A DNA stretch of 36,670 nt from contig JAIQES010000045.1 of assembly GCA_020073705.1 (NCBI GenBank), forward strand, positions 1 through 36,670, in the 5' to 3' direction. A program made the position numbers and the translations under genes. The DNA comes from Terriglobia bacterium. GTDB lineage: Bacteria > Acidobacteriota > Terriglobia > Acidiferrales > UBA7541. Every line of letters begins with the position of its first letter. Positions within the stretch are counted from its first letter, which is position 1. Shown in pieces: positions 8,589-13,430 of this stretch. Below the pieces are notes generated by a model. The model was not told the origin of the DNA. It saw only the letters and a list, made by a program, of their open reading frames with translations, and made no database searches.

Positions 8589-8665
8589 GCGCCCGTAGCT
8601 CAGTTGGAAAGAGCGTCTGCCTTCTAAGCAGAGGGTCGGGGGTTCGAATCCCTCCGGGCGCGCCA
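8589..8665 (+). tRNA. tRNA-Arg (anticodon TCT)
   Basis: The acceptor stem GCGCCCG (8589-8595) pairs with CGGGCGC (8655-8661), followed by discriminator G and an encoded CCA. The D-arm is GCTC/GAGC. The anticodon stem TCTGC/GCAGA encloses the loop CTTCTAA, so the anticodon is TCT (reads AGA/AGG). The T-arm has the TTCGAAT loop. It is 77 bases long with all four arms intact. Confidence 0.96.
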
Positions 8666-9241: not shown

Positions 9242-9279
9242 TGGGGTAACCGCCGCAACGGGACACGCAGGGATAGCGA

Positions 9280-9295
9280 CCCACATTCCGATAAG
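9280..9295 (+). repeat. 16-bp sequence repeated inverted at 13252-13267
   Basis: CCCACATTCCGATAAG occurs here, and its exact reverse complement occurs at 13252-13267. The two copies face each other and enclose the IS30-type remnant, the kinase and the MDR oxidoreductase. Matching stops right outside the 16 bases. They may be terminal repeats of mobile elements. Confidence 0.6.
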
Positions 9296-9361
9296 GGGGG
9301 CGAGCTCAACCGGTCGATGCAACACCATCTAAGCTAGATGTTCTCTTCAAAGGTGGTGTTT

Positions 9362-9437
9362 ATGACCCAGGAGAAACGCGTAGGGCTTTCAGCGACGCAG
9401 AAAGCCGACTTATGGTGCCGTTGGAAGGCGGGACAGT
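9362..9437 (+). pseudogene. IS30-type transposase, N-terminal fragment only
   Basis: From the ATG at 9362 the frame encodes MTQEKRVGLSATQKADLWCR followed by WKAGQS, the hallmark N-terminal helix-turn-helix start of IS30-family transposases of soil bacteria. Similarity stops at GQS (about 9437), just before the stop codon of the convergent kinase gene at 9440, and nothing resembling the DDE core follows. The leader carries a palindrome (CATCTAAGCTAGATG, about 9328-9340) and AACACCA/TGGTGTT arms. This is the left end of an insertion sequence whose body has been lost, so the junction marks a deletion or rearrangement. Confidence 0.72.
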
Positions 9438-9439
9438 CA

Positions 9440-11680
9440 TCACGATTCCGGCAGATTGAGCTTCCGCATCAACCCTGCCCAGCGCGGAGTAGAGCGCAGC
9501 TCCCTTCCGTACCAGAACCGCAGATATACGGCACCGTAAGCATCGCGCTGGTCAATGGCCTTCTCGAGCCAATCTGCCTCCGCGTCGAATTCCCGGAGCA
9601 CCCAGTGGTAAACGGCCAGGCCTCGGGGAGCGCCAAACGCATCGCCGGGCTGGAGGTTCCCCAACAGTTCTTCCGCCCGGCGCGTCTCTCCGGTGCGCTT
9701 CAGTAACCCGGCGAGCAATCCGATCACATGGGGAAGCAGCGGCGCGAGGGCGTACGTCTTTTCGCAAAGTACCAACGCCTCGTCCAACTCCCCCCGCGAC
9801 GCATAGTGAGTGGCCAGAGGTCCTAGCGCACCCACGATGCTCGGATTGAGCTCCAGAGCCTCGCGATATCCCGCGGCAGCTTCCTCGTCGCGGCCAGCTG
9901 CGACGAGACAGCCCGCCCGGTTAATTCGCAGAATAAGATTTAGCGGGTCTTCTTGCAGTCCGAGCTCTATCTGCTGGAGTGCTTCCACCGGCCGACCAGC
10001 GCGCAGAAGGTAACCAAGAGCGTACTGGAGGCGCACATTGACCGGCACGGGATCGCGAGCCATCGCTAGGCGGAAGCGCCTCTCGGCTTCCTTCCAGTCG
10101 TATTCGCCCGCCGCCACGACGCCCAACATCGAGTCTCCTTCGGGGAGGGAAGGATCCAGCTCCAGCGCCTTCTGCGCCTGGGAGCGCACCATGGGGAAGG
10201 CCTGGTTAGCCGGCAGCGCTCCCATAAGCGTCTTGCTAAGGAAATAAATTCCGTACTCGCAGTGGGCCAGCGCGAATTTCGGATCCAGCGTAATGGCTTG
10301 CTCGAAGCATTCCTTAGCGCGCGAAAGCAAGTCCGGACGAGAGGCTCCGAGATAGTGCCGCGCCTTCAACAGAGCCTCATAAGCGGGCAGGCTCGGCTTG
10401 TACTGCTCGAACGGCGCGGGCGTTCCGGACAGCTTCACCCGCAGCGCGGACGTGATAGCCTGCGCAATCTCGTCCTGCACCGCGAATACATCCGCCAGCT
10501 CGCGGTCATAGCGCTCCGACCAGAGATGCGAGCCGTCCTCGGCGTCGATGAGCTGCGCCGTCACTCGGACGCGGCTTCCGGCACGGCGTACGCTGCCTTC
10601 GAGAATGGAACGCACTCGGAGTGTTTCGGCGATCTTGGTGATGTCCTGCTCTTTGCCTCGAAACGCGAACGAAGAAGTGCGCGCGATCACCTTCAGCCCC
10701 GGAATCTGCGCCAGGAAATTGAGGATCTCCTCAGCCAGCCCATCGCTGAAGTATTCGTTTTCCTTGTCCCCGCCCAGGTTGACGAACGGCAGCACAGCGA
10801 TGGAGGGCGTTCGCTCCACGGACGAGTTTTGCGCATGGAGCGCAGTTTGCGCGCCGGAAACGGCGGCTCCGGGCGAACTCACTCCGCTGGTTGCAGCCAG
10901 TAGAGCGTCCTTCACTTGCGCAATGGATTGGAATCGGTCGGCGGGCGATTTGCGTAGACAGCGAGTGACAATACTTTGCAACGCCGGTGCAACCTGGATT
11001 GGTTCGGGCTCCTTGTACAAGATGGCCGCCATGGTGGCGATTGCGGAATCTCCGGTGAACGCGCGCTGCCCGGATAACATTTCGTAAAGCACCAATCCAA
11101 ATGAGAAAATATCGGAACGCGCATCGACGGGTTTGGCTTCGGCCTGCTCGGGAGACATGTAGGCAACGGTACCAAGGATGGTGCCGGGCATGGTCATGCC
11201 GAGGCTTGCTGTCGCGCCCGTCGCCGCTCGCTCGTGGCCATCGGCGTCGCGGTTCAACAGCGCAAGTCCGAAATCGAGCAACTTGATGCCAGATGCCGTC
11301 ACCAGGATATTGGCGGGCTTCAGATCACGATGCGTGATGCCCTTGGCGTGCGCGGCGGAGAGCGCATCGGCGATCTGCGCGGCATGGCGCAAAGCAACAT
11401 CGATTGGCAAAGGGCCAGCGAGCGGAGCGCCCTCAATAAACTCCATGACCAGGTAGTTCGGGCCGATGTCATGCAGCGTGCAAATATTCGGATGGTTCAG
11501 TGCGGCAATCGCGCGGGCCTCGCGCTCGAATCGATCGGTAAACTGCACCGCGGAGACTTTGATGGCCACGTCGCGCCCCAGCCGTGGATCATGCGCGCGA
11601 TACACTTCGCCCATCCCGCCGGCGCCGATGAAGGCGAGGATTTCGTAAGGCCCGAGTTTTGTGCCGGCCGAGAGGAGCAT
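9440..11680 (-). CDS. Soluble Ser/Thr protein kinase with FlgO/TolB-like segment and TPR repeats
   Basis: 746 residues. The kinase domain (about 10-265) is complete: glycine loop IGAGGMGEVY (18-27), Lys41 in VAIKVS, HRDLKPAN with Asp119, DFG 136-138, and GTVAYMSPEQ. There is no membrane segment. After a low-complexity linker, residues about 290-425 form the SIAVLPFVNL ... YFSDGLAEEI ... ILEGSVRR domain (FlgO/TolB N-terminal-like, also seen in adenylate cyclases). The C-terminus has about six TPR-like helical pairs (for example ALAHCEYGIYFLSK, GEYDWKEAERRFRLAMARDP). The starting MLLSAGTKLGPYEIL fits the family, although no ribosome site is visible. This layout is very common in Acidobacteriota. 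Its target is unknown; the TPRs suggest protein binding. Confidence 0.94.
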   Translation of the reverse strand: MLLSAGTKLGPYEILAFIGAGGMGEVYRAHDPRLGRDVAIKVSAVQFTDRFEREARAIAALNHPNICTLHDIGPNYLVMEFIEGAPLAGPLPIDVALRHAAQIADALSAAHAKGITHRDLKPANILVTASGIKLLDFGLALLNRDADGHERAATGATASLGMTMPGTILGTVAYMSPEQAEAKPVDARSDIFSFGLVLYEMLSGQRAFTGDSAIATMAAILYKEPEPIQVAPALQSIVTRCLRKSPADRFQSIAQVKDALLAATSGVSSPGAAVSGAQTALHAQNSSVERTPSIAVLPFVNLGGDKENEYFSDGLAEEILNFLAQIPGLKVIARTSSFAFRGKEQDITKIAETLRVRSILEGSVRRAGSRVRVTAQLIDAEDGSHLWSERYDRELADVFAVQDEIAQAITSALRVKLSGTPAPFEQYKPSLPAYEALLKARHYLGASRPDLLSRAKECFEQAITLDPKFALAHCEYGIYFLSKTLMGALPANQAFPMVRSQAQKALELDPSLPEGDSMLGVVAAGEYDWKEAERRFRLAMARDPVPVNVRLQYALGYLLRAGRPVEALQQIELGLQEDPLNLILRINRAGCLVAAGRDEEAAAGYREALELNPSIVGALGPLATHYASRGELDEALVLCEKTYALAPLLPHVIGLLAGLLKRTGETRRAEELLGNLQPGDAFGAPRGLAVYHWVLREFDAEADWLEKAIDQRDAYGAVYLRFWYGRELRSTPRWAGLMRKLNLPES

Positions 11681-11777
11681 ATTGAGGATTCACTAAGTGT
11701 ACAAGATCAGGACGCGGTTAGCACCTGGATCGCGGCCTACTCGGAAACGGTCCTCTGCCTCCACGTGAACCGGATAG

Positions 11778-11832
11778 GTCCTGATAAACGCATTATAAAA
11801 GGGCGCCCCTTTTATAATGCGTTTATCAGGAC
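11778..11832. repeat. 55-bp palindrome with 26-bp perfect arms (REP/MITE-like)
   Basis: The left arm 11778-11803 and right arm 11807-11832 are exact reverse complements around a 3-base loop (CGC). The arms begin GTCCTGATAAACGCATTATA and end in AAAAGGG. The hairpin lies between the divergent kinase and MDR oxidoreductase genes. Being so perfect, it looks like a mobile palindromic unit. It could also act as a cruciform or a bidirectional transcription stop, though no T-run follows. Confidence 0.8.
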
Positions 11833-12028
11833 GTGGCCGGGACAGGATCTCAACAAACGGCGAGGTCCAAGGATTCTGAGCAAAATCTTGGTTGCATGAC
11901 GAGGTCGCCCGTTGTAGATTCCCGGTCATGTACATTACGCGGGTACTCTTCCTTTGTGTTGTCACGACTGCACTTACGATTGTCTCGTCTGTGCTCGGCT
12001 CTTTCCCCGCCAAGGGAGCAAGAGGTTC

Positions 12029-13087
12029 GTGAGACACACGCGCATCATCGTCACTCACTACGGTGGGCCCGATGAACTTCGGGTGGTTGCAGAAGAGTGC
12101 CCGGAGCCGAAGGATGGTGAGGTGCGGGTGAAAGTGCTCGCCGCAGGTGTCGCCTACCCCGACCTACTGATGCGCGAGGGCGTTCATCCCGAGAAGCCCC
12201 CGCTGCCCTTCACGCCGGGGTGGGATCTGATTGGCGTGGTGGATCGGCTCGGCAAGGGTGTCTCTGGGATCGAGCCAGGCCAGATAATTGCCGCGCTGCC
12301 GATAAGCGGTGCATACGCGGAGTTCGTCTGCCTGCCGCAACGTGAACTCGTTCCGGTGCCATCTGGGTTGGACGCAGCCGAGGCTGTCAGCCTCGTGCTG
12401 AATTACATCACGGCGTACCAGATGATGCATCGTTCGGCTCAGGTCAGACCGGGCCAGCGCGTGCTGATTCACGGCGCGGCAGGCGGGGTCGGCTCGGCAC
12501 TATTGCAGCTTGGGCGCATCGCCGGCCTCGAGATGTACGGCACTTGTTCATCACAAAGGGCGTCGGCCGTTTCCGACCTGGGCGGAATCCCAATTGATTA
12601 CCGACATCTCGACTTCGTGAAAGAAATTCACCGCCTCACGAGTGAGGGCGTAGACGTTGTCTTTGACGGCATCGGTGGTCCCCATATGTGGCGTTCACGC
12701 AAGGCTCTGCGTCCTGGCGGGAAGGTCGTGGTCTATGGTCTCACTGCGTCGCTAAGTGGGGGGCGATTGGCTTCAGGTCGTCGTCATCGCTTTCATGGAA
12801 TCGCCATTTACGGGTTGTACATCGCTGGCGGCTGGCTTCTCCCGGGCCGGAAACGGCTGGTCCCCTACAGCATCCAGTGGCTCAAACGGCTGAGACCGGC
12901 ATTGTTTCGACAGGATCTGATCGCCCTCTTTGATCTCCTTCAACAGAAAAAGATCAAGCCGCTGATCGCGCAGCGATTTCCCCTTGCCGAGGCAAGACGT
13001 GCGCACGAGTTGCTCGGGAAGGAAGGCGTGGCCGGCAAGATCGTGCTCCTCTGTAACGGGTCCTCGCTTGCATCAGGACCGGCGTAA
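12029..13087 (+). CDS. MDR-family NAD(P)H oxidoreductase (quinone reductase-like)
   Basis: 352 residues from the GTG at 12029, where family similarity begins (VRHTRIIVTHYGGPDEL); AAGGGAG (12012-12018) lies upstream. A frame open to 11954 adds a Cys-rich stretch unlike the family. The N-terminal GroES-like domain has VLAAGVAYPDLLMREGVHP and PFTPGWDLIGVV. The Rossmann domain carries HGAAGGVGSALLQLGRIAGL at about residues 147-166, a GxxGGVG nucleotide site. Catalytic zinc ligands are not evident, so it is quinone reductase/VAT-1-like. It probably reduces quinones or enones with NADPH in the cytosol. It diverges from the kinase across the palindrome. Confidence 0.9.
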   Translation: MRHTRIIVTHYGGPDELRVVAEECPEPKDGEVRVKVLAAGVAYPDLLMREGVHPEKPPLPFTPGWDLIGVVDRLGKGVSGIEPGQIIAALPISGAYAEFVCLPQRELVPVPSGLDAAEAVSLVLNYITAYQMMHRSAQVRPGQRVLIHGAAGGVGSALLQLGRIAGLEMYGTCSSQRASAVSDLGGIPIDYRHLDFVKEIHRLTSEGVDVVFDGIGGPHMWRSRKALRPGGKVVVYGLTASLSGGRLASGRRHRFHGIAIYGLYIAGGWLLPGRKRLVPYSIQWLKRLRPALFRQDLIALFDLLQQKKIKPLIAQRFPLAEARRAHELLGKEGVAGKIVLLCNGSSLASGPA

Positions 13088-13239
13088 CGACGGTAAGCCG
13101 AGCCTACAAGCCGGGCGGTACACAGGCCAGACCCACGCTTTCGACCATAGGTTCTACATCGTTGATTTCGACGATGACGGCCTTGAAGGACGAGAAATCA
13201 CTCGAACGTTTGGGCAGTCAGCATAGCTGATGCCAAGTC

Positions 13240-13430
13240 CTGATAAGTCGGCTTATCGGAATGTGGGAGCGGGGATGGATCGGGATTTCGGATGCCTCCC
13301 CGCTGGCGGGTTTGTTCGTATACCCAGGACGGTTTGACTTGGAGGCGTTCGGCAATCCGCTTGGGAGTAAGTATTTCATTAAAGGTTTGCTCCTTGTGAA
13401 AGGTCCTCAGCGCGAAATCTCATCATAATC
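13240..13430 (-). pseudogene. Excisionase-like (HTH_17/MerR-type) DNA-binding fragment, broken at both ends
   Basis: The minus strand encodes ILTPKRIAERLQVKPSWVYE followed by QTRQRGGIRNPDPSPLPH. This is the typical helix-turn-helix of excisionase-like proteins that accompany integrases. The start is damaged: an AAGGAG site and an ATG (MKYLL, near 13382) sit one base out of frame with the helix-turn-helix. The C-terminal end (expected GRYxRF) is lost right where the 16-bp repeat copy begins at 13267. The fragment marks a former integrative element next to the 16-bp repeat. Confidence 0.55.
13252..13267 (-). repeat. Inverted copy of the 16-bp repeat at 9280
   Basis: CTTATCGGAATGTGGG, the exact reverse complement of 9280-9295. 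On its left it runs into GATAAG/CTTATC hairpin arms; on its right begins the excisionase-like fragment. Confidence 0.6.

Follow-up and report, generated by a model that had tools for sequence, protein, structure and literature searches.

The locus considered here raises the question of whether a protein kinase gene and an MDR oxidoreductase gene, enclosed by an exact 16-bp inverted repeat, have moved together as one mobile unit. The window, that is the whole stretch of 36,670 nucleotides of Terriglobia DNA that was analysed, carries CCCACATTCCGATAAG at 9280-9295 on the forward strand and its exact reverse complement at 13252-13267. A sequence-only reading of the window had pointed out this pair, with mobile-element debris at both ends and a long palindrome between the two genes, and had proposed that the interval may have been moved or trapped as a unit or that two insertion sequence (IS) ends may be left from a rearrangement. 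The pair is indeed exact and non-random, its two members being the only matches in the window at up to 3 mismatches against a chance expectation of 0.2. The debris is also present, as an IS30-type fragment on the left and a broken reading frame on the right, and so is the palindrome. We find it very probable, however, that the 16-mers are half-sites of a repeat, hereafter the arm, that was hit by IS30 and IS110 elements, and that the kinase and MDR genes are bystanders rather than the cargo of one transposon. The features are collected in Table 1.

Table 1. Features of the interval and its left boundary (positions in the window)
Feature	Position	Strand	Support
tRNA-Arg (TCT), left core-gene boundary of the accessory stretch	8589..8665	+	ARAGORN, Rfam
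Box A, outer half-site of a 36-nt arm, probably split by an IS30-family insertion and its partner lost	9280..9295	+	
Initial ~145 bp of an IS30-family element, with the IS end GCGAGCTCAACCGGTCGATGCAACACC and the transposase start	9296..9440	+	
Ser/Thr protein kinase of 746 aa, its C-terminal regions FlgO-like and TPR	9440..11680	-	Pfam PF00069 (E 6e-38), TPR, FlgO
Long palindrome: two box B half-sites flanking a putative IS110-type right end (GGGGCGCCCTTTTATAATG) that is doubled in inverted orientation	11770..11840	.	
MDR-superfamily zinc-type alcohol dehydrogenase/quinone reductase, 352 aa	12029..13087	+	Pfam PF08240, PF00107, PF13602
Broken helix-turn-helix (excisionase-like) frame, runs into box A	13201..13398	-	sequence inspection
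Intact 36-nt arm, CCCACATTCCGATAAG-CCGA-CTTATCAGGACTTGGC	13232..13267	-	arm model, 55 bits

The assembly as a whole has 41 occurrences of the 16-mer at up to 2 mismatches, compared to one for a reversed control, which indicates that the pair at 9280 and 13252 is a sample from a repeat family. A global scan with the 16-mer mostly hit unrelated taxa with one exact match each, as any sequence of this length would. Alignment of the flanks revealed that the 16-mer makes up half of a dyad repeat of 36 nt consisting of box A (GCCACATTCCGATAAG), NNNN and box B (CTTATCAGGACTTGGC), with box B an imperfect inverted repeat of box A. The box sequences are conserved and variation is greatest in the central 6 nt, giving a core pattern ATAA-N6-TTAT.

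We counted arms with a covariance model, taking matches at E ≤ 0.01. The genome of the window has 61 matches, a few of which are the same arm on both strands, corresponding to about 55-60 arms. Three genomes of the same genus have 48-51 matches each and other genera of the family 0-15 per genome, while the model found zero matches in other families of the order or class. Viral contigs and plasmids contained no arms in searches with two arm patterns (one search for plasmids), and a literature search within one library found no paper on the repeat. Clustering of the arms is strong: for 33 of 50 sites another lies no more than 3 kb away, compared to a mean of 3.7 and a maximum of 16 in 10,000 random placements. 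In the fetched stretches of genomes on which the comparisons rest, most of them chosen for containing arms so that some counts are biased, none of 113 arms overlaps a predicted gene and 32 of the 113 are paired face to face, with 6-28 nt between their A boxes. The fetched same-genus core stretches beside MBL/M16/RlmN, GH75 and dnaX yielded no arm, except for the arm-bearing dnaX contigs of G000 and G005 (G, C and L numbers are our handles for genomes, contigs and loci), and core stretches in G009 gave weak arm matches only. The existence of an arm family, its clustering, its junctions with ISs and the scars are directly shown by sequence comparison.

Next, we consider what the symmetry of the arm may stand for. 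A covariation test on the arms found nothing beyond shuffles, and no Rfam family matched at the arms. Given this lack of covariation, the symmetry looks like a putative double-strand binding or target site rather than an RNA hairpin, and we rejected a structured RNA, as compensatory changes in the hairpin are absent. Transcription terminators were also rejected: the counts of gene ends facing the arm are 40 versus 25 on the A side, a slight excess, and about equal on the B side (25 versus 31). A second type of repeated junction at box A was seen at L143:200-245, L145:7932-7975 and G000:C77:6671, where box A reads CATACATTCCGATAAG and follows a shared sequence, GCGGCGGAC in G005.

At the left site, the sequence-only reading had recognised the N-terminus of an IS30-type transposase, correctly so. 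Positions 9362-9439 encode 26 codons, MTQEKRVGLSATQKADLWCRWKAGQS, ending at the kinase gene; the peptide is identical to the transposase N-terminus in contig C72 and shares 73-85% identity with most other copies. Fragment and half-site together are 97% identical to C72 over 161 bp, and the IS homology reaches as far as the stop codon of the kinase gene, ending at 9438-9440. A DNA similarity search with window positions 9260-9480 found 21 places in the genome, and in every readable case an arm half-site precedes the IS30-type end. For 46 of the 48 unique IS30-type ends present in the fetched loci, an arm half-site lies on the outer side at a distance of 10 ± 1 nt, compared to 1.8% of random positions. 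In contig C66 the element is preserved intact, inserted between the two boxes of a single arm, and encodes a 389-aa transposase of the IS30 family (NF033563, E 2.4e-86, 290 bits against a cut-off of 80). About a dozen inserts of ~250 bp with the same ends, likewise with half-sites on both sides, are short non-autonomous IS30 derivatives. CGG-like repeats at both ends of the C66 copy are compatible with a 2-3 bp target duplication, but such duplications are hard to read because the arm loop is itself G+C-rich. By analogy with these copies, the left copy in the window is probably the same IS30/arm junction with the IS cut after ~145 bp; as a single half-site is kept here, its history as a split arm rests on that analogy.

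Other copies of the 16-mer do lie beside IS30-type elements, as the sequence-only reading had suggested checking, with an explanation that differs from the one it gave: the termini of the IS30 begin a few bases inward (GCGAGCTCAACCGGTCGATGCAAC / GCGGTCTCAATGGGTCGATGCAAC), which leaves the 16-mer outside them as a target half-site. We ruled out the 16-mer as an IS30 terminal repeat because of this inward position of the IS ends and because dozens of arms carry no IS at all. No IS adjoins the right 16-mer.

The palindrome at 11770-11840, between the two genes, has two sides of 34 nt that are 91% complementary (DNA fold z = -10.7), and the arm model matches it weakly at 11773-11837 (18.9 bits). 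Its core is identical over 19 bases to GGGGCGCCCTTTTATANTG, the right end of an IS110-type element, and is followed by CGTTTATCAGGACCTATCC; the other half is an inverted copy. In the IS110-type elements of G005, G004 and G001, a half-site precedes the left end TTCTATAAAAGGGG and follows the right end GGGGCGCCCTTTTATANTG. The palindrome shares about 37 of 40 bases with the right end/arm junction at L144 10365-10405 (G005), and its terminus GGGGCGCCCTTTTATAATG is identical in L144 and similar in L149 and L155. The IS110-type transposases were found at E 1.2e-36 and 8.8e-34, with 126.5 and 117.1 bits, just below the NCBIfam cut-off of 140. Based on the 19 identical bases and the flanking half-site, the palindrome is best read as a scar left by an IS110 element that inserted into a second arm. 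The IS110 end contains a short palindrome, AAAGGGGCGCCCTTT, that could have seeded the inverted doubling. Elsewhere, two arms carry TTCTATAAA(A) in the loop with the element absent (L007:51-110 on C24 and L017:1501-1550 on C2). TTCTATAAA is the left-end sequence of the IS110-type elements, and these loops are possible excision footprints.

At the right site, the 16-mer is part of a full arm, at 13232-13267, which is the top-scoring arm of the genome. This had escaped the sequence-only reading, as had the related half-sites in the palindrome and the right copy, an inverted pair at 11823-11837 and 13232-13246. That reading had also placed a broken excisionase-like gene here. The frame at 13201-13398 does break off, translating ILTPKRIAERLQVKPSWVYEQTRQRGGIRNPDPSPLPH before it enters the repeat, and is unique among the fetched loci; its excisionase-like nature is weak, with no Pfam match at E ≤ 0.001.

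The interval has three arm sites, one per gene gap, and two of the three bear IS scars, apparently IS30-type and IS110-type. Its genes lie in an accessory region. Relatives retain the GH75-DinB order of the left flank, G002 also having the same tRNA-Arg beside GH75, and the ABM-MBL-M16-RlmN order of the right flank, while the kinase gene, the MDR gene and arms were not found in the fetched syntenic stretches of these relatives. There the two core flanks are on different contigs or far apart, and hence offer no clean empty site. Homology to arm-free relatives at the dnaX/SRP RNA locus of G000 and G005 stops ~25 bp before the first arm. These two genomes also share 1,248 bp at 99.8% identity, spanning the SRP RNA and two arms (L102:12058-13305 on G000:C15 and L159:92-1339 on G005:C21), whereas the adjoining dnaX is 85% identical between the two species. 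This is either a recent exchange or a chimeric contig end, the latter being considered because both copies lie near contig ends.

In our model, arms sit between the genes of accessory clusters in this Terriglobia genus, and their centre is a target of two unrelated ISs, one of the IS30 family, together with its short non-autonomous derivatives, and one of the IS110 family. Three arms occupy three adjacent gene gaps in the window. We infer a sequential order of insertion: IS30 would have entered the first arm, and a later deletion would have removed the remainder of the IS together with the second half-site, up to the kinase stop codon. IS110 would have entered the second arm, its right end staying behind as a palindromic scar between two half-sites, and the third arm is intact. 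Flanked by landing pads in this way, the kinase and MDR genes are expected to be bystanders, and the suspicious repeat pair is explained without a new transposon.

Joint movement of the two genes between inverted terminal repeats, as a composite or passenger transposon, would account for 16-bp repeats that are exact and correctly oriented and for two genes missing from the relatives' fetched syntenic stretches. It is nevertheless highly improbable. The 16-mer belongs to a family of dozens without a transposase of its own, arms of the same pair surround unrelated genes in the same arrays, and the IS30 that interrupts the left copy is situated outside the 16-mer. That IS30 remnant is on the left only, with no second end in the window. 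We saw neither a target duplication at 9280/13267 nor a second copy of the 4-kb block, and a third, separately scarred site of the arm family lies between the two genes. We also consider it quite unlikely that the arms are REP elements mobilised by a RAYT (TnpA-REP). Like REPs, they are short imperfect palindromes in high copy number, intergenic, present as singlets or inverted doublets, and hit by ISs (PMC1525189). They are, however, clustered in islands, and the A-side flank has no fixed tetranucleotide such as the GTAG or CGTC tag, GTAG preceding a few single arms. The genome's sole Y1_Tnp gene (RAYT-like, L107:1260-2095, G000:C7 around 95895) lies amid copies of a different, GTAG-tagged palindrome, GTAGCACAGACTTCAGTCTGTGC, and on this ground RAYT-driven REPs were rejected.

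A further alternative would make the arms recombination sites of a system that builds arrays in the manner of integrons or dif modules, with the kinase and MDR genes as two of its cassettes. This is unlikely, in our judgement, and an active site-specific recombination system of an undescribed kind, which gathers single genes into arrays in the genomic islands of Terriglobia and has IS30 and IS110 as parasites of its sites, is a similarly doubtful prospect. If true, it would place these ISs beside those that parasitise integrons and dif modules. The gaps between arms often hold about one to three genes, with small odd ORFs in several arrays, the arrays lie in islands, homologous flanks break at the arm edges, and the ATAA-N6-TTAT core has a variable 6-nt centre. 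Tyrosine recombinase genes lie on several of the contigs that carry arm arrays (L154:7995-8558, G005:C43:21439, G001:C84:13462 and G000:C47:42416), and the one in G005 adjoins tRNA-Arg(TCT), the same tRNA that borders the accessory stretch of the window. On the other hand, core-type genes with their own spacing also occur between arms, and excised or swapped cassettes were not seen. An integron attC array was rejected: inspection revealed no pair of R-boxes, and no integrase in six genomes exceeded the cut-off (TIGR02249, best 113 bits against 265). The alternation of dif modules is absent as well, same-orientation runs prevailing by about 24 to 12 in a hand count. Pattern matches at G000:C7:127552 and in G004, G005 and G009 stand behind TTGACA and may be promoters, and a chromosomal dif is not safely identifiable; dif modules were likewise set aside.

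Bystander genes between IS-targeted arms thus being our preferred reading, we compared it with known systems. REP/REPIN elements and the ISs that target them come closest, with short intergenic palindromes, single or in facing pairs, that serve as specific targets of ISs, IS110-family members included (PMC1525189); arms differ in having neither a GTAG tag nor a cognate RAYT and in being confined to accessory clusters. GTAG/CGTC palindromes and acidobacterial Y1 transposases have been covered before (PMC3733652). REP targeting is listed for IS3, IS110, IS4, IS256 and IS5 (Tobes and Pareja 2006, PMC1525189), and IS1655 is weakly REP-associated (2/13 and 2/6; PMC1525189), whereas the IS30-type element described here is found almost exclusively in the repeat. 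This would add an IS30-family element to the ISs whose insertions are almost confined to a palindromic genomic repeat. IS1655 is itself an IS30-family element, the one member of its family in the REP listing. IS30 of Escherichia coli also has a transposase of this family, inserts in the middle of a palindromic target, has nearly palindromic hot spots and leaves defective copies and adjacent deletions (PMC9333248), but the arm target is itself a multicopy genomic repeat family. The pdif/dif modules of Acinetobacter plasmids (PMC10132070, PMC13141974) are short, two-armed, intergenic and IS-hunted sites with a variable 6-nt centre. Arms differ from them in sequence, in wider conservation (36 nt), in the lack of alternating orientation and in their place in chromosomal islands, and ISs land in the arm centre rather than 5 bp outside as at pdif. 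Integron arrays share the order gene, palindromic site, gene, while arms have no R-boxes, conserve primary sequence across the whole site and come with no integron integrase over the cut-off.

Under the preferred reading, two unrelated IS families use one common landing pad, and the arms represent a family of repeats in acidobacterial gene islands, with a means of spread that can be tested by comparing complete genomes. Two more large protein-kinase genes, with similar 3′ ends attached to arms, stand beside arm pairs in G005 (L144:5485-8340 and L146:5601-8531).
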